Source of the DNA: Xiphias gladius
Taxonomy: Eukaryota > Chordata > Actinopteri > Istiophoriformes > Xiphiidae
NCBI RefSeq assembly: GCF_016859285.1
Contig: NC_053412.1
Location: 6,972,426-7,036,425, forward strand
Direction of reading: 5' to 3'
DNA length: 64,000 nucleotides
The notes below the pieces were generated by a model. That model searched no databases, had not been told where the DNA came from, and saw only the letters and a program-made list of their open reading frames with translations. This document shows positions 3,001 through 54,773 of the stretch, piece after piece. The translations under genes were made by a program, and so were the position numbers. Position 1 is the stretch's first letter; each line of letters begins with the position of its first letter.

Positions 3001-6000
3001 CTCACACGTTAGTGGTGAAGATGCCATAGATCAGGTCCTGCTCTGGTAAGTAAAAGGTGCTCTGCAGCTCATTGTAGTAAAAGGGGATTTCTCCTGAGCG
3101 GGAGCAGTTCAGTCGGGCCTTCATGAACGTGGTCCACGTGTCCTCCAAAAGGAAGCGACCACCCATATCGTTCTTACAGACGCGGGCAACACGAGAGAAC
3201 ACCATCTTCCCGCAGTCGTTTTCTACTGCAGTTTCTCTCAGGAAGAAGTAGGCAAACCGACCAATCTCATAAACAGACACAAAATGAGGCTCTGGAGGAC
3301 ATATGAGGGGAGAAAACATAAAATATGGAAGATATGATATTCCCAAACAGACACACAGGTCAATACAAGTCTGAAAAAAGGACATATCAGTGTGGTGCTT
3401 TGTTTACCGTTGAGCCATTTGGAGTTGTACTGGGCAGTGCGCAGTGGCGGCATGTTCCCCAGGCTCCTGTAGATGACTGGGTCACGTCCTGAGAAGTCGA
3501 TCACTGTAGCAGCGTACAACTCGCCTTTCTCTGTTACCATGGCGGTGGAGTTGTGGCGCGGGTCGTAGGGACATCGGGCAACACCATTCACTGTTTCCAG
3601 TACCTGACTGGTGTTACCAATCTGACAGAAAGACAGACAAAGGACATAGCTAAGTCATTATAGGGTAAAAAGAATCTAATGCCTCTGTATTAGCCGTTGG
3701 TTTGCACTGTGGGTTACAAATGAAATTTTTGGCAAATAACCTCTTTCTCTTCTGTTTTATGGCTGCTTTCAACTTCCAATTCACATTAATTCAAAACTTT
3801 TAATTACTTAGCTTTTAACATTTCCAAAATGCAGAAAATCTATTATTTGTATTACCACCACCAAAACAATTTATTCATAATGATAATAAATAAGTTATGA
3901 TAATCATAACTGCCTCCATCTCCGGTCTGAAATGGTAAACCAATTAATTGATTATTTGATTACCAGAAAATTCATCAACAACTGTCTTGTCAATTAATAC
4001 ATTTTTTTTTTTTAAGGACAAATGCTGCATATTTTTCTGGTTCCATCTTTTCAAACGCAAACATTCGCTGCTTTTCTCTGTTTTAAATTGAATACTTTTG
4101 GATTTTGGTTAGACAAAACAAGAAATTTGAAGGCATAACATTGGAATCTCTTCCAAAAAAACCAAACAGATTGATAGATTAACTGATAATGAAAATAATC
4201 GTCAGTTGCAGCACTACCCCTTTTATTATGAAATAAGGAATCCTTGTCAACTTCTTAAAGCCCTTTTAGCCCTTTTACTGTCAGTTATTTATATTTTACA
4301 CATTTACTGACCATTTTCACAGTATACAAAAGTGTGTGAACCTGTTTTCCGGGTTTTCTGATAAAACTTGCTTGAAATTCTGTGGTGATTGAGTTGTAAG
4401 TTGTAGATTTAAAATTCTGGACTAGTTTGCTTTATTATTATTTTTTTTTTTACTAATTTTGATGGTTGGATTATCCTGGTAACTTGACTCTTGACATCTC
4501 ATGATAAACTGCTGTACCAACCTGCCTGGTTATACAGACGGGGGTAAAAGCATTGGTCCCACACGTGAAGAGCGTCCTCCCACTGATCAACAAAACCCGG
4601 ATATAGTTTTGACATTCCTCCTGCAGAAAAATACACCACAACCCAGTTTTACCGTTTCATGAGAACAAACTAACCGTCTAGCATAAATAAAATGTGAACA
4701 GTTGCAGCTGGGTCATCCTACACCATACATTTGGATTACAGTTAACAGACACTGTATTTGATCCTTTTTCCATTTATACGACACAGCACCCTACCTGAGA
4801 TTTGCCCTTGCTCTGACATGAGCGCTTTGTATCTTCATCAGGTGCCCATTCTGTCGCCTGAAGAAAAAAATACAAACATATTTTGCTTTTGGGAATTAAG
4901 TTCAGATCTATCATGTACATTACAAAACACACAAGTAACAAGGGTGCAAAGTGTAAGGGAAATCCAAGGGAATAATGAAGACAAAACCAGAGAAAAATTT
5001 ATAAAAACTAATTGATTTTTAAATATTTTAATGATGTATGAACCTTTTTTATTTTTAATATTGTTTCTGAAAAAAATGATTTAATTTTCCAAATAGTTTA
5101 AGTGCTATAAAAGAAGCATTAAATGAACTCCAACTGTAAGTTTTATCTAAGTCTATCATAAGCACTTGGCTTGGCTAATGTTACCTGTATGAGGGAGGCG
5201 TTGATCAAACTCAGTCTGAAGATGAAGTTTCTGAAAAAGAAATATTTCATGGTGGAGGAAAGGGCACCAGGACACGAGACTGCAGAGGGTTTGATAGACT
5301 GATTATGATTCTGAATCGTGCTCTTGGTGTATTCAGGTTATTTTATTTTTTTGTAGTGTTGTCATAAATGTTGTCAATAATGTCTCAATTTTTCTGTATG
5401 CCCTCCCATTTTCTCTCCTGATACATGCCTATAGATTCCTTTTTTTAACATTGTACAATTGCAATATATGTTGACTTTAGAGCACAGTTATTTGCTACCT
5501 TGCTCCCACAATGAGCTGGTTTCTGCTCAGGTCCAGAGCGAGCTGGGAGAAATCCTTCACTCCTGGGTGGGAGAACTCTGACATCCACGGCCTTAACGCT
5601 GGATGGAGAATGAGGGGTGGCAGGGAGGAGAGGGTTGATGGTTGGAGGAAAGTTAAATAGAAGGAGGAGGGGTGAAAAGGCGGGACGAAAAGGCAAAACA
5701 CATCATGAAAGACGAACAATGAGGAAAACAAGGAAAGGCAAAAAAAGATTAATGAGAGGAGAGACAAAAGGCAGGAGAGTAAGAAGAAGAAAAAGAAATG
5801 GGAGGAGGAAGATGATGAGCGGGAACAGGAAGAAGACAAGGAGCATATAGGAGGGGGAGGAGAAGAGTTAGAGTTAGGTGCAAGGGCAAGAAAAATTGGG
5901 AAAAAAATAAGTTCTTTGCGTGGGAATCCCTTTTCACCAAATGGTACCTGGCTCACAGCTCCAGCTTCAGTTAAGCCCTCAGTGTTTTTACTAATGTGTT

Positions 6001-28189: not shown

Positions 28190-31100
28190 ATGGCGGAGCA
28201 GCAGCAGTTCTACCTCTTGCTGGGTAACCTGATGAGCCCTGACAACAACGTCAGGAAACAAGCAGAGGTAAGAGGAGGAAAACTAGCTGTTTTCATGGCT
28301 GACAAGTTCGGCGATTGTCGAAAGATGTGCGGTCAGGTTAGCGAAAGCGAAAGCTAACCCCCTGTTAGCTACCCAGCCTGGCCGCGCGCGCAGTGAGCTT
28401 TCACGTCAAGCTCGGAGAGTCCACGTGCGATGTGAAGCCGACACCGAGTACTAGTCAGCTAACGCTAACTACCTCCACCATGTTGCGTAGTTATGTGGAC
28501 ATAACGTAGATCTCACTGATACGACCCCAGTCGTGACACTATGTATTTCTGTGTTTGTGTATGTTTGTGTATGAAGCTCATTCGGTTTGATTGAAAGTGA
28601 ATGATCCGTTTGTTAGGTACCAATCCTAATATCCCCAGCTGACAGAGTAGCTAGTCTTCTAGCTAGTAGAATACAGGAAGTAGCATGACGCTAAGTGTTG
28701 CTAGTTTTATTAGCTAGCAACGCTATCGCTGGACGTAGTGTGTTACCAAAAGACGGGAATTCAGGAATTAAATAGGGACATTCATGTCACGTTATCTGCA
28801 ATGATAGGCGACAAAACAGCAATGGGACACATTACAAATGGAGTTAGGGAGGCAGTTCATTCAGAGGGCGAGCTATGTTAGCAGTATCGTTACTAATGCA
28901 GACGAGTGGCCTTCGTGTCATTTTATGTGAAAGTCAGTTTAACACAACAGTTTAAAACATGCGGTTTCTTTTTTTTTTTGTTTGTTACTCATGAAGCAAT
29001 GTATCTGTTTCAGCCACGTCCCTACAAAGGCTCATCTCAGGTCATCCCCTCTCACTGGATTAGTTTCTCTGTCTAGCTGGCCTGTTCACACCCCACCACC
29101 ACCACCCACCGCCACGATTAGCCTCTTGTCGCGGCAAAGCTTTGTTACCACAGTTTCCCTCTTCAGCACCCTAGTTTTGGATGAGGTGGTTGAATCTTAT
29201 CACACATAACCCCCCCCCCTCCCCCCAATCACTGGCAGTCAGCGTTTTTCTTTATAAAACACAGACTGTCTGCCGCGATGCTAAGCTCATTGGAATTCAT
29301 CCTTTATAGAAACTCTCCCTTTCTGTCTTAGACACACATAATAGGAATTGATCCATCTGTAAAGAACTTTAAACCCATATTTTAACAGCTAATGACTACA
29401 GCTACCGAGCATTTGTAGGTGTCCAGACCCCTGGTTTACCCCATTCAAGACACGATGCCGGGGGTGACAAGCCATGAAGTACAAATTTGTAACAGTCTTA
29501 AAGGTGGGAAGTGACCAAAGTGAGTGTCTTGTGGTTAAAACCAGAGGCTGGTGGTTTGCTTCTATTTAGTATTGGGGATGATTTGCTCTAGCTAGTGGAC
29601 ATATATTTCAGCTCAGTGTAGAAGCTGAAGATGGCCTTTTGTTCATACATGCTGGAAAGTCATGCTGTTATGATGTGAAATACATAATAATCAGTAAAAG
29701 CACTTGAATGCTAGTTAATGCATGAGACAATGATACTTAGCCACTGGGATTCCTCAAAAGACAGATTATTGTCAGACATCGGGTTAAGGCGGAGCTGCCT
29801 ATACTATTTACATGCACTGTAATAGTGGCTTACCTAAACACTCAGTATATATGGGCAAGTAGTTTCTATTTCAATGTGTTTTGTCAGTAATGAGATCTGT
29901 CCCACACCCTACTGTCGCCACAGTGACAGTGTCCTGGTTCTTTGTCATGTGAATGTGTTCACTTAAAAACATCCTTGAAATCCATTTGGGGCTATTTTAA
30001 CACGTTTTCGCCTTTTTGTTTGTTTTTTTTTTTTGGTTTTTTTTTTGTTTACCATTAGCGCAGCTTGCACATGATAATCAGTGATATTTTCCACACCCGA
30101 GGTTCTGCTACATCCCTATAGAGCCTGGTGTGCGCGTTTGCATTTCTCATGTGGCTTTAATGAACCACCATAAGAACAGTGGAGATCAAAACAAAAAGGC
30201 AGCACACGATGTGCATCAGAAAAGCAGCCTTTTTTTAATGTAAATTTCCCTGTTACTGAGATACACATCCCCTGGTGTGGGAATCAGTGTGGTTGTGTTT
30301 CATAAAAGAATGATGTGGTAAAAATATGTTGGAGATTTGAGCTGTCCACACTGTTAAACACTTGGTTGCTGCTGCTTTTCTTCAGTTTTTGCTTTGCTAT
30401 ATTTATGTCCCAATGTAATGAAGTATTTATCAAATAAGGAGTTAGTAATTTTGATTCTAACTTGGGTGAGTGAGGCAGCTTCAGGGTGTTTGTATCAACA
30501 GTATATTAACACACTAATGGACATTACTTCAGCTTTGATAGTAAGGCGAGGCAGAATGGACCAGCAAAAACTGAAGTAACGAGCAGGATTTGTGTACATT
30601 TAAAGATCCGATTTGCTGTACAGGCTTTTGAGGCTTATTTCGCATACAAAGCAATAAACATCTAGTTAATAAAACAAGTTTTGAATAGCCACACCCGTCA
30701 TGATAAATGTTGATGAAATTATGAGAATTTCTGGACAGTCCTCCTGCACTTTGTCCAACCACCACATCTGTTTCTGCTTGAAATATGCCATAGTGTGGAA
30801 TTACAGGTATGTGCAAAATGCAGTTTCTTTGACTGCAATGGAGTGAACATGACACTGTCTCACTGGTATAGATTCATTTTCCAAGGAGGGTACAATTGTC
30901 CATCTGTGGTGCTTGCATCTGTAAGAATGCAGCAAAAGGCATGTCTCATTCTTACCACTGTCCCATTAATTTTCTTTGCAGGAGACCTATGACACTATCC
31001 CGGGCCAGAACAAGATCACATTCTTGCTGCAGGCTGTCAGAGATGCATCTGCTGCAGAGGAGGTTTGGACAGACACATTTTCGTGACATGATTTATCCTT

Positions 31101-34100
31101 TATGCCTGAATTGGATGAAGGCTACAAGACAACTATTGAAATCACTTTAGTGTTTTTGTTTTTTAAAGTTTGCCTGTTTTCTGGACTTAAAACTGTATTT
31201 GACAGACACCTGAAAGCCAGTTGTTAATGAGTATTATCCCTGCCCTTGGTATAAAGCTTTGTGGTACAAGGAATGAAAAACATTTTAGGTTAAAAGCATT
31301 CATAGTTTAAGTGTTGGAAAGTAAGCCAAAGTTCGTGTGATATTACATCACGTCCACAATGAGAATGCTGTGTGCATTATCCCGATATGTTTGCTTTGAA
31401 AAGGTGCGACATTGACTGCATTTTAAGAATGTAGTCTGTCATCGCAGCCTGATACGAAGGCACGTGAGTCACAGTTTTGGCATTTGGGCAGTTATGTTTA
31501 CTCGGATTCCACCACCAGCTGCTTGGTCCCTCATGCTTCCCCTCCTTTTCTTTACCTCGAGCCCGATATTTTTAGAGTCTTGAAATGGGAGCAGGCAGAG
31601 AGGTGCTTGGCCCAGGGAGAGTGACTCTGCCTTTCTGAGATGCTGCACGTTTTGTTATTGTGTTATGCAGATTGTAAACTGCCAAAATAAATCCACATGT
31701 TGTAATATAAACTATATATGACTATATGTATCAAATCTTAACTATAGAAAAGCCTTTCTGACAAAAAATTTTTTCAGATGTCTGACATGGTTTTAAGTCA
31801 TGGACACTGATGTGGGGGCCAGGGCTGGAAGTGTGACATAACATTGAAACCAATGTTTTATCTACTCAGGTCAAACAGATGGCAGCAGTGCTGCTGCGGC
31901 GGCTGCTGTCGTCATCCTTCGAGGAGATCTACCCGGGCCTGACCCTGGAAATGCAGACGGCTATTAAGACAGAACTGCTAACAAGCATTCAACAGGAGAC
32001 CTCGCCAAACATCCGCAAGAAGGTCTGCGACATTGCAGCTGAGCTCTCCCGCAACCTCATTGGTAATGTTCCTCAGATCTTTCACGACCTGTTGAAGTTT
32101 TTAAGCTGTGTGCTGACTGATCACTTTTGTTTCTGCCCCACGGTACTGCCTACATGCACCCAGCCCATGCTACATGCAGGACAGGGTGATGATTAAATAT
32201 TGAGCAACAATGATTTCAATATTCTTATCCTCATTTTCATCAATGTATCATAAATTTGTCATGAGGTATTGGCTCACTTGCCATAAGATTAGATACTGTT
32301 GGTCTATGACGGCGTGTCATTTAGATGGGGATCTGGTGATCAATAAATGTTAATTTGATGCTGTTCAGATGAACATTAATAATCTGATTTTGGTGTCTTT
32401 TAATCTTTCATCTAGATGATGACGGGAATAACCAGTGGCCAGAAGTGCTCAAATTTCTGTTTGACTCTGTCAACTCTGACAATGTCGGCCTGCGAGAGGC
32501 TGCCCTGCACATATTCTGGTGAGCCTTGGATAAAGCCAAACTATTAGTATGCTTGGGCAGAAGGTACCAGTGGGTGACTTGTGTGTTTTGACCTTATTTT
32601 AGGAACTTCCCAGGAATCTTTGGCAACCAGCAGCAGCATTATATGGAGGTTATCAAACGTATGCTTGTTCAGTGCATGCAGGACCAGGCAAACCCGCAGG
32701 TAAGATCTTAGGACAATTGAAGGGCAGTTTATTTTCGGGTTGATATGCCTGTACACCTAATTTCTAAAATAATTATCCACCAGATTCGTACCTTGGCGGC
32801 TCGGGCTGCAGCATCCTTCGTTCTGTCCAATGAAAGCAACACAGCTCTGCTGAAGCACTTTGCTGACCTTCTGCCGGGAATCCTGCAGGTGAGACACAGG
32901 ACACTTGTCTGGGCCTCATGTGAACTGGCTCTGAACATCAAATTATTGTGTACAATGTTCTCAACATTATTTATTGATGTTAGCTGAGGGTTCCTACAAG
33001 TTTTCAATAGGTTTTCCAGAGCAGTGTTGTGCTTGATGCCTGCACGTAATCCTTTGCCATAAATGGCTTTTAAGTCGTTGGTAAGAGTTATAGGTCCTTT
33101 TTTTAGAGACCTTTCATTGGTTTGGTATGTACTCATAGATAAAGCCAGCTTAGATCTTGCAAAAATGCTTAGTTATTTTGACTTAGAATGCTGTTTTGTG
33201 TGATTATCCCCATATTGTATTCATGAAATTCAGTATTTGGAAAGTAAATAAGTCATCTGCAAATAGAAGCTGGAACTTCAAAGTAAGAGCAGTAGTACCT
33301 GCTTGTGGTTTGTTTTTCTTTTGCTGAGAGACGTAGCGTGTCCTATGATTCCTTGTCGGGCAAGAATAAGGAAGTTGATTCAAACTAAACACACATTCAT
33401 GTGCTACGAGAACAGTTAACAGGACCAGTAGCTGCAACTGTTATTTCATAACCTACATTAACAGCATGTTTCTTACCACAAGACAATGAGGCATCAGTCT
33501 AGATTACTGAATATAGGATGTCCAATATATCAAGTCATTTCGCAAGCTATATATGTTTCAGAATCCTACCCAAGCTATATTGCAACAGTGTTGAGCAGTT
33601 TTGTCATTGACTCTGATAGTTGGAAGTTGTGGCAGTATGAATTTGGCATTAGCAGCTTGCTATAGCCAAATGAAAGTAGTTGCAACACTAATCTTTTTTT
33701 TGATCAGGCAGTGAACGAGTCCTGCTACCAGGGAGACGATTCTGTGCTAAAGTCTTTAGTGGAAATTGCAGACACAGCACCCAAATACCTGAGACCCAAC
33801 CTGGAGGCCACTCTGCAGCTCTGTCTGAAGGTGAGTCGGAGAGCACCCTAATCCAAAGTATCACTTTTCTGCTCTTGACATTAAGCACAAAATGATGCCT
33901 GAAGTCTTAATGTCTGCTCATTTCTGTCCCTCTCTCCTCAGTTGTGTGCTGATACCAACCTGACTAACATGCAGAGGCAGTTGGCATTGGAGGTCATCGT
34001 CACCCTATCTGAGACAGCAGCAGCCATGCTGAGGAAACACACTGCCATTGTGGCTCAGAGTGGTGAGAATTTGGTTTACCATCAAATAACTTCACTTGAA

Positions 34101-36720
34101 GTCCCCTTGCTACTTTTTGGCCACCCAAAAATGTTTGGTAGAATAGTTTAGACAATTGTTGTTCCTGTGTCGTGTCCTCAGTGCCCCAGATGCTGGCTAT
34201 GATGGTTGACCTCGAGGATGACGATGAGTGGGCCATGGCTGATGAGCTGGAGGATGATGACTTTGACAGGTAAGACCTGGTAAATCAGCAAGACTCAGAT
34301 CCACAGTAACTTCCTCACATTTGATTGTTGGTCACAGATCCCACTGTGTGTCTGTGTAATCACCTCATGGTTAGGATGAAAACTTTTGACTTTTTTTTTA
34401 TCTAAAGCTTAGCTCCAGGGGTTTCATTTTTTTGGCTGATTTCTCAAACCTGAAACATCAGCTGTCCTTAATTATAAGATGAAAAATTTAAGGCATCTAA
34501 ATTTAGGGAACCAGAGGATCAGATTGTGTTTTGTAGTATATGACTGCAGTGTTTTTACATCAGGGTATTTTCAAAGACGCTTGCCAGAAAAAGGCTGTTC
34601 AAATGTCTAAATATATTCATACTTTTTTTGTTCTAGTAATTTTGTTTCTTGTCACCCACCAGTAATGCTGTGGCTGGGGAGAGCGCTCTGGACAGAATCG
34701 CCTGTGGTCTGGGAGGAAAGATCATTTTGCCCATGATCAAACAGCACATCATGCAGATGCTACAGAACCGTAAGTAACCCTACTGATATACAAGTTTTTA
34801 AATTGGTCACTGTGATCATGAGATTAACCCGATGTTTTTGTTGCTAGCTGACTGGAAGTATCGCCACGCCGGGCTGATGGCGCTGTCGGCCATTGGTGAG
34901 GGCTGCCACCAGCAGATGGAGGCCATCCTCCAAGAGATTGTCAGCTTTGTCCTCCTCTTCTGCTCCGACCCTGTAAGAAACGCAACTTCAAACTTGACTT
35001 ACACACAGATGGTGCCTCGTAAACTCAGCTCAGACTGTTTGTGCATATGTAAACTACATTTGGGTAATTATGGGTAGTAGTTAACATTTATTCTTTTGTT
35101 TTTCCTCCCCCAAAGTCTTTACTACCTGCTTACTAATATTACAGGATTTTTTTTTGTGTACAGCAGGTGCCATCTTGTATGGTGATTTTTGAATATGGCT
35201 TTCTTTTCCCTCCTCAGCACCCGAGGGTGCGTTATGCTGCCTGCAACGCTATTGGACAGATGGCCACAGACTTTGCCCCAACCTTCCAAAAGAAATTCCA
35301 CGATAAGGTATGTGAAGTTACGTGTTCAGTTCTAAAATGGTTGTTTTCTGGTGGCTACATGTTAAGTAGCTTATGTATTCGATTATGGTTTTAGATAAGT
35401 TATCATTCCTGAAATGCGTCACTGTCCCCTTGATTTGAGGGAATTACATCAAATATGCACTGAATTACCAGTTTAATAGCCACACCTGTTCAGTTTAATG
35501 CAATAGAATAGAAATGTGATGGAGACATTTGCAAGGTGTAACCAAAGTCACTGTTTACTGCTGTGGACTACAAACACTGACTGGTTCCTTTTCACTTCCA
35601 GGTGATCTCAGCTCTGCTTCAGACCATGGAGGACCAAAGTAACCCACGGGTGCAGGCACACGCTGCTGCCGCCCTCATCAACTTTACAGAGGACTGTCCC
35701 AAATCACTGCTCATCCCATATCTGGACAGCTTGGTGCAGCACCTTCACGTCATTATGGTTGCCAAGCTGCAAGAGGTACAGATATTCAGTTCATGTTGAT
35801 AAATCAGTAAACTCATAGCCAAAGAAGAGACTGTGGCGTTTCTCGCAAACCCACCATTTAATCGCTGCCAACACACTTTACTGCCAGCCAGTTCAGCAGG
35901 TCTCCTACATGGCTCTCAGGAGTCTTAAGTGTTTCCTCTCCTCTCTTCCCAGTTGATCCAGAAGGGCACCAAACTGGTCCTGGAGCAGGTGGTGACGTCC
36001 ATCGCCTCGGTAGCCGACACAGCCGAGGAGAAGTTTGTGCCATATTACGACCTGTTCATGTCCTCGCTCAAACACATTGTAGAAAACGCAGTGCAGAAGG
36101 AGCTTCGGCTGCTTCGTGGCAAGACCATAGAGTGCATTAGCCTCATCGGCCTGGCTGTCGGCAAGGAGAAGGTCTGTGTAGAATGTCAAACTGAAATCTT
36201 TGAGAACTTCCTGTTAAACACATTTCACTGCACATTCATGATTCAACAGTCTTCACATCCGTCCTTTTCTTTCTGTTCTGTTACTAGTTCATGCCAGACG
36301 CCTCTGCCGTCATGCAGCTGCTCCTCAAAACCCAGACAGACTTCAATGACCTGGAGGATGACGATCCTCAGGTAGGAAGACTTTGACGACCTTGGAACTA
36401 TCCAGTTTTGTTTTATTTCTGTTTCTGCATAGTCACCCTGTCACGTTTTTGTGTGTGTGTGTGGTTTAGATCTCTTACATGATCTCAGCCTGGGCCAGGA
36501 TGTGTAAGATCCTGGGGAAGGAGTTTCAGCAGTATCTGCCTGTGGTGATGGGTCCCCTGATGAAGACAGCCTCCATCAAGCCTGAGGTGGCCCTCCTCGA
36601 CAGTAAGTAACACAACAGTGGCTTTCTGCTTTGTACTGTGGACACCCAACAGTCTTCAAATGCTTTTACTAGCAGTGGCCAATTGCATTTGCTCACATTA
36701 CTAAATAAAACCTGGCTGTC

Positions 36721-36773
<53 letters not shown>

Positions 36774-39700
36774 TGTGAGAGCGAAGACAAAAGTAGTTTC
36801 TTGGAGAAAATGGACAGCAATACGTTGTTGTGAGGAGACAGACTTCACTCTGTTCTTTTCATCTTCCCTGCTATTTCATACCTCTTTTTGTTGCTACAGC
36901 CATTTTTAAACACACTTTTTTAACAGTAGAGAAGAACAAGAGTTGAGGTATTCAAACAGCAGGTAGCAGAGGGCTGTCCCTCCATGGCCATGACATATTT
37001 TGGTGGTAATTTACTTTTGAGTTAAGAAATGAACCTGATATTACTCTTCACATTGTGGCTGCGTAAAGACCTGCTTCCCTACATCAAACATTTTGAATGT
37101 TTCTACACTTATTGGAACTTGAAGTGTTTGTTGTTGTTGTTGTTGTTGTTTTTTAAATAGTGACTGAATAGTGCAAAAGCAGTGGGCATTGGGTGCAAAA
37201 TAAAGGGAAAGATTCAATATTTGAAAATGTCTGTCCGTGTCTTGTAGCCCAGGACATGGAGAACATATCCGAGGATGATGGCTGGGAGTTCGTCAACCTG
37301 GGAGACCAGCAGAGTTTTGGCATCAAGACGGCCGGCCTGGAGGAGAAGGCCACTGCCTGCCAGATGCTGGTGAGTAGAGGACGACTGAGACACACACATG
37401 ATCCTGAGGCAGATCTGGAAGAGCCACCAGACGCCATTGTTTGTCTATATCTATATCTAGATATTCAGGTCGTTGACAGTGTTAACCCCTGTTAGTGAAA
37501 CGTTCTGTGTTGTATTCCAGGTATGTTATGCCAAAGAGCTGAAGGAGGGTTTTGTGGAGTACACGGAGCAGGTGGTGAAGCTGATGGTTCCTCTACTCAA
37601 GTTCTACTTCCATGATGATATCCTTTTTGTACCACAACACGATTGTTGGCCAAATCTGACAAGGCATTTCAGGCTAGCATCCAACATATTACTTTGGTAT
37701 TTGATAAATTAATAGTTCATCAAAACATCAGACTTGTTTTTGGCGTTTCCGTAACTCTCTCACGCGTGCGGGTGGCAGCAGCCGAGTCCATGCCCCTGCT
37801 GCTGGAGTGTGCTCGGGTTCGAGGACCAGAGTACCTCACCCAGATGTGGCACTTCATGTGCGACGCCCTCATCAAGGCCATCGGCACCGAGCCGGACTCA
37901 GATGTCCTGTCAGAAATCATGCACTCTTTTGCCAAGGTAACTTTAGGGGTAGCAAGCCTTCAGTGCCCTTTTTTTTTTAAATTGGATGTAGCGGTGATTT
38001 TGAGAAACCTTGACTGTGTTTCATAAGATTGAAGAACCATGTCCAGTTTCTGATGTGACTGATGGAAGTTTTTGTTTTTTCCTTTTTAGTGTATTGAGTT
38101 GATGGGTGACGGGTGTCTGAACAACGAGCATTTTGAGGAGCTGGGTGGCATCCTAAAAGGCAAATTGGAGGAGCATTTTAAGAACCAGGAGCTCAGACAG
38201 GGTGGGGCTTCATACCTTTTTTTTTTTAAATGTTCCCTGAAACTAATCTTTTGTCTGAAAATGTCTGCCGAAGCACAGTTTGCTGACGAATCCAGCTTTT
38301 GTACCATGTAACATCAAACCTGTAAAAAAATCTTTATGCCTATCTGTCAAAGCATAAACCTCACAATTTCCCATGTTTACAACATCCTCTTCACTTTGTC
38401 TTCCTGCACTTTTCATGGGTTGGTAATTAGACATACATAATCCTCACATGAACACTTTGTCCTTCACAGCCAAGAGACAGGATGAAGACTATGATGAGCA
38501 AGTGGAGGAAACATTACAAGACGAGGTAAATATTTTCATTTTAGTAAAGATGTTAGAGCTGTTATGAATACCTGTCAAATTGTTTTGTCCAGTAAATGCC
38601 ACAAGTCCCAATCTTGAGCTAATGAAAATGACTGTACCACCCATCTTCTGTTTCTGTTAGGATGAGAACGACGTTTACATCCTGACCAAAGTGTCAGACA
38701 TCCTGCACTCAGTGTTCAGTAGTTACAAAGAGAAGGTGCTGCCTTGGTTCGAACAGCTGCTGCAGCTCATCGTCCAGCTAATAGTAAGAACTTAATGATC
38801 CTGAATGAATCGGCAATATATCGGTACAAGCGGTGAACACTCGTCGTATTGTACATGTTTTTTTTTTTTTTTTTTTTTTTGTACACGGATCTCTTCAATG
38901 GATATAGTAATGCTCAGAAAATTTGGAATAACAGGGAATTTTAGTCGTGTCACCAAAGTCAGTGAATACATTAAAAGCTCAGCGTAGTGAAATCCACAAC
39001 TATAAAAACTACCTTTTGTGTGATGCTTGTAGGAGTATTTTATTCAATTAATCTGCCAGTTTTCTTGACATATCTTTTTTTTTTTTTTTTTTTTTTAAGC
39101 CCATTATAATTTCCTAGAACTCAAGGGAACATGTTTAGAAGGCTTGTTTTTATATTAGATTATCAAGAAGTTACCCGTTATTCTGTCAATCAACTAATCT
39201 TGAAGTATTTTCTAAAAACATCGTAATAACTCAGTTAAGTCCCATGAAAAATTTTCAATCTGCAGGTGGCAGGGTTGTTGGACTATTTCATGATGCACAT
39301 CACATACTGAGTGAGATCAGCAGTAACTAGATTTTTTTGCTCGTCCGCAGTGTCCCAACAGGCCGTGGGCAGACAGACAGTGGGGTCTGTGCATCTTTGA
39401 CGACGTGGTGGAGCACTGCAGCCCGTCCTCCTTCAAATACGCAGAGTATTTCTTGCGGCCGATGTTGCAGTCACTGTGTGACTCGAGCCCCGAGGTTCGG
39501 CAAGCAGCCGCCTACGGTGTCGGCGTCATGGCTCAGTATGGAGGAGAGAACTACCGCCCGTTCTGTACAGGTACGACCTGGTACTGGTCTTCCCTTTGTG
39601 GTGGTGGTGGTGGTGTTGCTTTTGGTTGATAACTAGATGATGTCTTTGTTTTCGTGGTCCAGAGGCCATTCCCCTGCTGGTCAGAGTCATCCAGGCAGCC

Positions 39701-40800
39701 GACTCACGCTCCAAGGAGAACGTCAACGCCACAGAGAACTGCATCTCTGCTGTTGGAAAGGTTATGAGGTTTCGGCCAGAGTGTGTCAACGTCAACGAGA
39801 TCCTTCCCCATTGGCTCAGCTGGCTACCGCTCAACGAGGACAAAGAGGAGGCCGTCCACACATTTGATTTTCTGTGTGACCTCATTGAAAGGTAGGACAA
39901 CCACCACCTAATTTCCCCCCCCCCCTTTAATTGCTGGGGGTGTAAATTTTTTTTTTTTTTTTTTTTCCCCCCTCTTGCTGACAATCATCTTCTCTCAACA
40001 GCAACAACCCCATTGTGCTCGGGCCCGACAACTCCAACCTTCCTAAAATTTTCCTCATCATCGCAGACGGAGTTGCAAATGAATCAGTCAAGAGTGAAGA
40101 CGCTTGCAGCAAACGGCTTGCAAATGTCATCCGTCAAGTACAGGTGAGTCATCACTTTGTCACCATGCCAGGAGACTTCATGTGGGTTTGGTTTGAAAGG
40201 GGGGGGGGTTGAAGAATCCATTTGACCACAACCAGTGTAGGATAACATTAAGTTAAGGTCGCAACGGATTTCACACCCAATTAAATTTTATGAGGAACAG
40301 GGACCATATTTGTTGCCAGTCAAACGCCCCAGGTCACTAGAATGACAAGCAAACGTTACAAGGCAGATGCACGTTACAAAACAAGTAAACTGATGGATTG
40401 TTCTTTTTAGGAATGCCCATCGGTTGAGTACAAGGTGACTGTAAACTGAAATTTTTGAATGCAAACAGGTGATGTTGACATCAAGTAGTTAAGTTTTCAC
40501 GGTAGTTTTGAATTTAGAATAACAAGTGACCAGTGATCTGTGCCCAGACGGCATTTAAGTGTCCGCAAAACTAAAGTAGATGAGGCAGAGTCAGGTTTCT
40601 GCGTTCTTGGGAGTTTGAATGTAGATGGTGTGGGATTTTCTGTAGACGAAAAATCAATATTTAAGTGTAGGAAGTTGTTCTTACGTTGACCATTTTTTTG
40701 TCGTTACCTACAGGTGTCGGGAGGATTATGGACGCAGTGTGTATCAACACTGAACGAGACACAGCAGAAAGCCATACAGGACCTACTGAACACTGCCTGA
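28190..40800 (+). CDS. ipo5: Importin-5 (RanBP5/karyopherin beta-3), complete
   Basis: Nuclear import receptor of the importin-beta family, built of HEAT repeats. Coding exons: 28190-28267, 30982-31062, 31870-32062, 32416-32518, 32603-32699, 32784-32888, 33708-33830, 33942-34062, 34182-34269, 34663-34769, 34848-34972, 35218-35307, 35602-35775, 35953-36171, 36288-36371, 36470-36602, 37248-37369, 37521-37617, 37764-37936, 38090-38201, 38470-38525, 38661-38783, 39351-39570, 39663-39891, 40002-40143, 40714-40800. They total 3282 bases, 1093 residues; human IPO5 has about 1097. The start [14 protein letters not shown] matches the family N-terminus; the end is LLNTA. The acidic loop with DELEDDDFD sits near residues 315-330. 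Near-identity to vertebrate IPO5 across all exons (for example [10 protein letters not shown] and KTQTDFND) makes the call secure. One intron is AT-AC. Confidence 0.97.
28268..30981 (+). other. ipo5 intron 1
   Basis: A 2.7-kb intron after the 26-codon first exon. The first 500 bases remain relatively CpG-rich. It contains C-rich and T-rich low-complexity runs (29208-29226, 30015-30050) and no further exon. Open frames near 28982 and 30529 are non-coding by appearance. Confidence 0.7.
36724..36774 (+). repeat. (TG)n microsatellite in ipo5 intron 16
   Basis: About 24 TG units, uninterrupted, in the intron between exons 36470-36602 and 37248-37369. A (GTT)n run lies at 37128-37150 in the same intron. 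Confidence 0.9.
37618..37763 (+). other. ipo5: U12-type AT-AC intron of ipo5
   Basis: The 146-base intron begins ATATCCTTTTT at 37618, matching the U12 AT-AC donor consensus, and ends CTCAC at 37763. TTTCCGTAAC at 37746-37755 is a near-match to the U12 branch-site consensus (TTCCTTAAC), eight bases before the intron end. Joining 37617 to 37764 restores [13 protein letters not shown] exactly as in other IPO5 proteins. The nearest GT...AG alternatives would insert or delete conserved residues. Confidence 0.9.
38857..39097 (+). repeat. Two poly-T runs in an ipo5 intron
   Basis: Uninterrupted T runs of about 22 bases end near 38880 and 39097, in the intron between 38783 and 39351. A further poly-T run at 39948-39966 lies shortly upstream of the acceptor at 40001. 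Confidence 0.75.
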
Positions 40801-49300: not shown

Positions 49301-51083
49301 AAACCTTGCCGGGACAAAAAGTAGTCCTATATTACAACAGCACCCTGGACATGTGACATAACTACAAAATGTCACTGAAATAGAAACATAGTAACCCATT
49401 TATGACTCAAAGCAGCTGCTGAAACTGCTGGCTATAATGCGTTATTTGTATTTCTTCACAAAGATGTACATATAGCATAGGTGGTAGACTACTGTTTTTT
49501 AGCTGTTTCAGAAGCCTAGCAGGAAGAAGCAGTTATCACAAGTGCTGCACATGATGAAGTAACCATTCCAGGACCAATATTGGGGCAACTGATGTCCACA
49601 GATTAAGACTTGTGGTCTAATCCTGTACAACCTTATAAGAGGGACAAAAACATAGACAGCACTGACGGATCTCTTGATTCATTAAACATTCCTTGACTAT
49701 TTGGTTAAAAGAAGAATTAAAAAGCAAAACCCACTCACTTTTCATTCATCTCCAGGCACCAAGTCTCTAACTCCATTGAGTCACCCTGAGTTGCACAGAA
49801 ACAGACAGACAGATGAGCAGAGGAACATAAAACCGGGACTAAAAATAGAACTATCTTCATTTTCAGTTTTTTGAAATGTACAGGAGTAGATGAGTAGTCT
49901 GGGTACTGAAATACATAATATACTGGTGATATTTATGTGCAATGAGCATTTTTTCTGGCTTGTGTTTTTAGCATGCAGACCCACAGAGCAGTATAGCTAC
50001 TGTTCTTCTTGCTGTTAACATAGACCGCACCAACCACTCATGGTTTACAAGCCCGATACCCAACATCATTATTTGTGATATTCTAATAAAACCTATGTTA
50101 AAAGTCACTACAGAGCTTGAGCTCATCTTGGTGAAGAAGTTATTTTACAAAAAACGAAAATGGCAGCAGTAGATGATCCACGGTTGACCCGCATTAGGGA
50201 GGTTTTACCTCTGATGTCTTCAGGGAGATCTCAACACACATGGAGCGTCCAATGCCAGGAAGTTGGCCGGCCAGTGCCTTCTTGGCTTCATGAGTCACCT
50301 CTGGGATGTCTTTGATGGCCAAATTAAACTAGAAGAAATACCAATCAACTGACTAAATTTCACACTTATACGAGAAGACCAACAGTCAAAACAAGCTACA
50401 GATATGTAAAAATAGCAAAATAAGTGACATATTTTAAATCCGATCAATTATTACAATAGAAAAACAGGGGAAAGACAAAAATTTGTTTACCCAGTCAGAG
50501 CCTGTAGGTGATGAGGAAGAGCGAGTGCAGATTTTCTCTCCAAGACGGGCTTGGACTATCACCTGGACGGTCTACAAACACACAACAGGACATAAGAAAC
50601 CAAGCTGTGAACAGCTTCACAGAAGCAGTCCATATGAAAACTGTTTACAGGAGTAACAGGAACACTGTGTGTGGAAAGACAAGCTGCTGTGGAATATCTT
50701 AAATTTCATTTTTAATGCTGTGAGCACCACTAATAAAATTTACCTCCATTATATATTAAATATCAGAGACAAATATCTCAAATAAAACCAAAACTATCTG
50801 ATGGGATAGTGATAATTAGTAGTAAGTGGAAAAAAAAATTTGTTTGTTTTAATGAAGCAGTGTTTTCAGAATTGTAAGCAACTTAAGGCTACACATGATA
50901 GGCTTCAATATGTTCCTTTAGAAACCTGTAGTAAATGACTTGGATAGGTTCATATTTTTCTGCACACATGGAAAAACCTATGTTGGGACAAAGAGCATCA
51001 TACCAGCCTCTTACCTTCAACGCAAAGAACTTAATGAACTTGTCCAAGTCCTTTTTATCCTGGGGACTTAGGTCACTGTCCAT
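43314..51083 (-). CDS. atg13: Autophagy-related protein 13, complete
   Basis: Regulatory subunit of the ULK1-FIP200-ATG101 complex that starts autophagosome formation. Coding exons, 5' to 3': 51083-51015, 50571-50491, 50328-50209, 49785-49739, 48789-48649, 48450-48410, 47879-47783, 47629-47522, 46958-46868, 46695-46597, 46115-46032, 44977-44868, 44605-44464, 44343-44266, 44046-43939, 43634-43506, 43391-43314. They total 1623 bases, 540 residues, close to human ATG13 isoforms. The HORMA domain is about residues 1-198 (start [34 protein letters not shown]). The middle is Ser/Pro-rich and poorly conserved. The [10 protein letters not shown] motif is kept. The LC3-interacting motif is FVMV (about 467-470) after acidic residues, and the ULK1-binding C-terminus is FDAFVDMLQ. 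Exon 46695-46597 is the least certain. Confidence 0.96.
45315..45830. repeat. Diverged interspersed repeat in an atg13 intron
   Basis: The intron between exons 46032-46115 and 44868-44977 contains GAGCCTGACCAATACTTGAT with TTCATATTGATATTTGAG, resembling from memory a common teleost repeat with a GGCTGACCGATA start. A related phrase (CCAATACCAATATTGATATTTG) occurs at 23605-23625. The class is not certain. Confidence 0.35.
46426..46455 (+). repeat. Poly-A run in an atg13 intron
   Basis: Nearly 25 consecutive A residues (poly-T in the atg13 transcript), between exons 46115-46032 and 46695-46597. Similar A-runs of 16-17 bases occur at 16311-16336 and 48982-48998. Confidence 0.8.
46597..46695 (-). 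other. atg13: Probable variable exon of atg13 (33 residues)
   Basis: Phase-0/phase-0 exon with acceptor ATCTCAG and donor GTGAGT, encoding a Ser/Pro/Leu-rich stretch beginning [14 protein letters not shown]. Its length is a multiple of three, so it could be skipped without a frameshift. It falls where mammalian ATG13 transcripts differ by optional exons. I do not recognise the peptide itself. Confidence 0.55.
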
Positions 51084-52826: not shown

Positions 52827-54773
52827 ATGGCGATCCCTATTGCCATCTTGGACTGTGATCTACTCTTACATGGTATAGGTCATAAGACCCTGGACCGCTT
52901 TGACCTGGACTCTGTTTCAGACAGTTTCCTCCTCACACAATTTGGATTCCCCAGAGAGTTTATTCTGTATCTGGTGGAATTACTCAGAGAGGTTAGTATG
53001 TCCTCACCCTCAGTTTTGAATGCACACATAAAAGGTACTATGTTTAATGTGTCTTTCTCAAATCTGTATATACTACTATGTTGTGTTTCTCTTTTATTAT
53101 TTCTGTGTGTTAGGCTCTCTGCAGACGTACCCAGCGGTCCAGAGCCATCAGTCCTGAGGTCCAGGTGTTGGCTGCTTTGGGCTTTTACACATCTGGCTCA
53201 TTCCAGACATCTATGGGAGATACTATAGGGATCAGCCAGGCTTCAATGTCAAGATGTGTGTCCAATGTGACCAAAGCCCTGGTGGAGAAAGCTCCTCAGT
53301 TCATCATGTTCAACATGTAGGACAACATCTACTACTACTATACATATATATATAGAAATAAATTATGTCTGTTTAGACACTTTGAACTGTGACACTCAAT
53401 AAAAAATACCATGTCACACCTTTCCCTGTACTTGTTTCTTTGCCATGTATGAGTTTACATTGCTGTAGATAAGTAATTTACTGTGACATTAAGTGTTTAA
53501 GAAAGTGGTTAATATTATATTGGCAATAAACTATGCACTTACAAAGAAATTAATATTCATTTCTACAGAGAGACAGCTGTTAAGGTTGAAAAGCATAAAT
53601 TAAGCTTCAAAGAAAGGAGAAGAAAGCCGCATAATAACAGCAATAATGTTTTCCAAACAGGGATCCCTCCAGCAGAGAGCAGTCCTTCCAGGAGTTTCAG
53701 AGAGTTGCAGGATTTCCAGGAGTTCTGGGGGTGCTGGACTGTGTTCAGGTTTATTATATTTTACTGTATTAGTACTTTCAGTAACTTAATGTTTTTGCAC
53801 TCTCCTTGATTTGATTATCAGTTTCTATAGCAGGTAACTGATCCCTCTTTCTCAGTCTTCTTTGCTCTTCATCTCCAGGTCGCCATCAAAGCTCCAAACA
53901 GTGAAGACTCGTCGTATGTGAACAAGAAGGGGTTTCACTCTGTGGGCTGCCAGCTTGTTTGTGACGCTCGAGGATTGTTACTCAGCGCAGAAACCCACTG
54001 GCCAGGTGGCCTCAAAGACACTGATGTTCTAGAGAGATCTGCTCTCCACAAACAGCTGCAGGACACCGAGAAGGGCTGGCTGCTGGGTGAGACGTGAATT
54101 TTAGACTTCCACCATCGCTCTGTAAAGTCTGAAAAGCCCACTTGAGTTAGATAAGATGGGGTTAAAGGTTTCGTTTCCTAGGTGACCGTCGTTATCCTCT
54201 GAGGAAGTGGTTGATGACGCCGGTGGACAGACCAGATTCCCCTGCAGAGTTTCGATACAATCTGGCTCACACTGCTACACATGAGATAGTGGACAGAACC
54301 TTCAGAGCCATCCAGACCAGATTCAGATGTTTAGATGGCACCAAAGGATATCTACAGGTATTGAAGTCCATCCTACGCTGTTCTATTCCTTCCTCTGTCC
54401 CTTCCACATAATCAAAATATACTCTGGGTTTGACAATAAACTGAGCAAGAACAGGCTTCTTTTTGCATCTTAACTAAAAGAAAAACTGAAAATTACAGGG
54501 ATCAGCATCATACTGGGCATTGTCGTCCATTTATTAAGGCCTCTGTTGTCATGTCTCCTCTCCCGTGTGTAGTATTCTCCAGAGAGGAGTTCGTCCATCC
54601 TGCTGGCCTGCTGTGTCCTCCACAACGCCTCCCTGCAGTCTGGATTAGACGCCTGGACTCTGGAGAGGACAGACCCTCTGGAGCAGCCCGAGACCCTGGA
54701 ACAGAGACCTGAAGACCGTGACAGCCAGGCGGAGGACCTCAGAAAACAGCTCATACTCAAACACTTCAGCTGA
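52827..54773 (+). CDS. harbi1: HARBI1, domesticated Harbinger transposase-derived nuclease, complete
   Basis: Conserved vertebrate gene derived from a Harbinger (PIF) transposase; a putative nuclease known to pair with NAIF1. Exons: 52827-52991, 53114-53316, 53661-53748, 53879-54086, 54182-54357, 54573-54773, totalling 1041 bases, 346 residues (human 349). The start [14 protein letters not shown], the segment [20 protein letters not shown] with helix-turn-helix-like [11 protein letters not shown], and the end KQLILKHFS all match the family. Candidate acidic residues are D149 ([10 protein letters not shown]) and D199 (GGLKDTDVL), but D259 stands where family members have Glu (HEIVDRTF). It lies head-to-head with atg13, as in human. 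The phases join cleanly; the donor after 53748 (GTTTAT) is weak. Confidence 0.96.

Follow-up and report, generated by a model that had tools for sequence, protein, structure and literature searches.

Coding intron 18 of ipo5 in the swordfish, Xiphias gladius, almost certainly belongs to the AT-AC (A-type minor) subclass of U12-type introns and very probably descends from an intron of the vertebrate ancestor. It lies in the 64-kb stretch of DNA that was analysed as a whole (the window), and its ends were fixed by the protein that the flanking exons encode. An intron of this type has already been described in human IPO5, and the one here is an unremarkable, conserved feature rather than a new kind of finding.

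The ipo5 gene model

The coding exons of ipo5 were picked by eye from a three-frame listing, with the human protein as an aid, and were joined by a script into a model of 26 coding exons and 1093 amino acids (Table 1). The frame of this model is open from the ATG through the stop across all 26 exons. In a PDB search, residues 2–1093 of the protein aligned with residues 5–1096 of importin-5 chain 6xte_A, and the displayed portion of the alignment was free of gaps over query residues 2 to about 958. An unusual junction in such a gene could also come from a sequencing error or from a pseudogene copy. However, both the open frame over 26 exons and the alignment, gapless where displayed, speak against this reading, and an error would be unlikely to have created both of the splicing motifs described below, so that its chance of being right is negligible.

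When ranges around the exon anchors were searched for introns, 24 of the 25 coding introns had an in-frame GT-AG solution, and intron 18 had none. The other 24 introns were sought as GT-AG only and could not have emerged as AT-AC introns, and they therefore serve as a control for the motif scores and not for the termini. Coding intron 16, two introns upstream of the AT-AC intron, contains a (TG)n repeat with 27 copies of the unit (36724–36777).

Table 1. Features of ipo5 around coding intron 18, in window coordinates
Feature	Position	Strand	Basis or remark
ipo5 CDS, 1093 aa in 26 coding exons	28190..40800	+	scripted model, ATG start, TGA end, 6xte_A alignment
Coding exon 18, last base = base 1 of codon 714	37521..37617	+	boundary enumeration, gene model
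AT-AC intron (ipo5 coding intron 18), 146 bases, phase 1	37618..37763	+	sole peptide-giving pair of 54,730
U12-type 5' splice site ATATCCTTT	37618..37626	+	9/9 to consensus RTATCCTTT
First in-frame stop if intron 18 is retained, TAA	37710..37712	+	
Branch site TTCCGTAAC, 8/9, with G in place of the usual T	37747..37755	+	candidate branch adenosines 37753, 37754
3' splice site AC	37762..37763	+	boundary enumeration, sequence readout
Coding exon 19	37764..37936	+	boundary enumeration, gene model

Boundaries of intron 18

Intron 18 opens with ATATCCTTTTT, contains TTCCGTAAC and closes with TTTCCGTAACTCTCTCAC, which has AC as its terminus. Around the site 54,730 donor and acceptor pairs were tried, and 214 of them retain 90 codons. 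Exactly one of these, the AT-AC pair, yields the conserved peptide. It joins 37617 to 37764 and gives a 90-residue stretch that is identical at 90/90 positions to importin-5 PDB chains, for which the PDB listing gives the name of the molecule and not the species. The termini of the U12-type AT-AC class, AT and AC, are thus found in the same pair that alone gives the conserved peptide. The closest rival pairs differ from it by one residue and end GA-CA, TA-CG or AT-GC. Since a one-base shift in either direction alters a residue, the boundaries are unambiguous, and alternative boundaries were rejected.

A GT-AG or GC-AG intron might be the one truly used at this site, with the AT-AC pair as an artefact of the protein comparison. 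Indeed, 68 of the 402 GT/GC-AG pairs leave the frame open, but none of the 402 gives the conserved peptide of 90 residues identical to importin-5. The best product among them has 94 residues and an altered junction, and it scores 431 versus 472 for the AT-AC product. GT-AG or GC-AG splicing of intron 18 was rejected on these grounds, and we give it next to no probability.

The initial annotation had placed an AT-AC intron at 37618–37763, and its coordinates, termini, motifs, length of 146 bases and phase all proved correct to the base in the sequence readout and the gene model. The position that it gave, after base 1 of codon 714, agrees with the gene model, and its statement that splicing there alone restores the peptide was borne out by the enumeration. 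U12-type introns are biased away from phase 0 (PMC10639083), and the phase of intron 18 agrees with this bias, which is a tendency of the class and does not define it.

Donor and branch-site motifs

The U12 donor consensus is /RTATCCTTT and the branch-site consensus is UCCUUAACU (PMC2846911). Intron 18 matches the donor consensus at all nine positions, while the other 24 ipo5 introns match it at 2 to 6. In the last 45 bases, the best match to TTCCTTRAC is 8/9 in intron 18 and 5 to 7 in the other 24 introns. There are 9 intron bases between A37754 and the exon, and 10 for A37753; either A of the motif can act as the branch point, and the optimal branch-to-exon distance is 11–13 nt (PMC3584512). 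The initial annotation had put this distance at about 8–10 bases and had described it as fitting the class. The short distance was confirmed by the measured 9–10 bases, but the fit was slightly overstated in view of the optimum. Its assignment of the intron to the U12-type AT-AC class is supported by the donor score, the branch-site score and a peptide that comes solely from the AT-AC ends.

Compared with the U12-type AT-AC class, intron 18 has in common the RTATCCTTT donor, a branch site near TCCTTAAC, the AC end and a short distance from branch to exon (PMC3584512, PMC2846911). It is unlike the class in one mismatch at the branch site and in a distance that falls below the optimum (PMC3584512). 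Introns of the U12 class usually lack a polypyrimidine tract, a trait that is not visible in intron 18. The pyrimidine fraction ahead of its 3' end is 0.76, within the range of the other 24 introns (0.53 to 1.0).

Introns with AT-AC termini can also be excised by the major (U2) spliceosome. Intron 5 of human SYCP2 and intron 1 of TAF2 are examples (PMC8280824), as is SCN4A intron 21 (PMC2831892), and the fairly pyrimidine-rich tract before the 3' end of intron 18 would suit such a reading. The U12 consensus fit of this intron (donor 9/9, branch site 8/9) argues against it. A U2-type AT-AC intron was rejected on these motif scores, and we consider it very improbable here.

Chance expectation of the motifs

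The interior of intron 18 was shuffled 100,000 times with the AT and AC ends fixed. A 9/9 donor arose in 58 shuffles and a branch site of at least 8/9 in 601, whereas both motifs together arose in none of the 100,000, with about 0.3 expected if they were independent. Over the whole window the motifs are less distinctive. The donor sequence ATATCCTTT occurs twice in 64 kb, where 0.86 copies would be expected, and at least two copies turn up in 19 of 100 shuffles. For TTCCTTRAC with at most one mismatch, 26 occurrences were found versus 39 expected. A donor and a branch site in joint pattern, with a span of up to about 3 kb, were present in 48 of 200 shuffled windows, and therefore motif matching alone is insufficient for the claim. 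Without the coding context the motifs are not rare in 64 kb, and it is the coding junction that carries the case.

The second exact copy of ATATCCTTT is at 54343–54351 on the minus strand; chance alone would give the window about 0.9 copies. The only exact TTCCTTRAC in the window is at 49689–49697 on the plus strand (TTCCTTGAC).

Predicted splicing pathway

We infer that the minor spliceosome removes intron 18 in this animal. By what is known of the pathway, the U11 snRNP would pair with ATATCCTTT at the donor, and the U12 snRNA would pair with TTCCGTAAC and bulge the branch adenosine. U4atac/U6atac.U5 would then join, catalysis would proceed with it, and the exons would be ligated at GATG/GCGTG. 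If intron 18 were retained, the protein would be predicted to end early, at the in-frame TAA at 37710. The G in the branch site and the short branch-to-exon distance could slow splicing, and retention could then set the level of importin-5, but we regard this as unlikely. An Rfam search found no RNA family at the gathering score in the window, and no U11, U12, U4atac or U6atac gene within it.

Flanks of the window

A 59-residue piece of the ORF at 3238–3654 (minus strand) matches semaphorin-6A PDB chains with an E value of 1.3e-15, and the window's left end probably holds a semaphorin-like gene. The same piece has no Sema match in Pfam. Its weak Pfam match to zf-U11-48K is below the curated cut-off and is probably due to chance. 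Six flanking ORFs have no Pfam family, and two shorter flanking pieces gave no Pfam match above the cut-off and only this one weak match below it.

Relationship to intron 21 of human IPO5

Intron 18 is very probably the same intron as intron 21 of human IPO5, which is already known. The gene, the class and the termini are all shared, as judged from the description of the human intron in PMC8280824. In the ipo5 model, eight coding exons lie downstream of intron 18. A human IPO5 gene of 29 exons would leave an equal count of eight after intron 21; a statement of 29 exons for IPO5 was not found in the literature.

The figure legends of PMC8280824 describe intron 21 of human IPO5 as a minor intron of the U12-type AT-AC class. 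In that study its splicing, followed by RT-PCR (Fig. 4A of PMC8280824), was impaired on depletion of the minor-spliceosome protein CENATAC. Wild-type CENATAC fully rescued it, and the upstream and downstream major introns were unaffected (PMC8280824). Furthermore, U12 introns are mostly conserved among vertebrates, with 156 of 180 clusters kept in all eight lineages (PMC2831892). PMC8280824 was the only literature match for "U12-type intron" together with IPO5, and PMC7961459 contains the terms IPO5 and minor intron. No literature was found that pairs a minor intron with zebrafish ipo5 or with "importin 5", and resources such as U12DB may list the fish intron.

The minor intron of IPO5 known from human is thus indicated in this fish gene too, and it opens no new question. 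Intron 18 of ipo5 is a spot where gene predictors limited to GT-AG introns would write the wrong protein.
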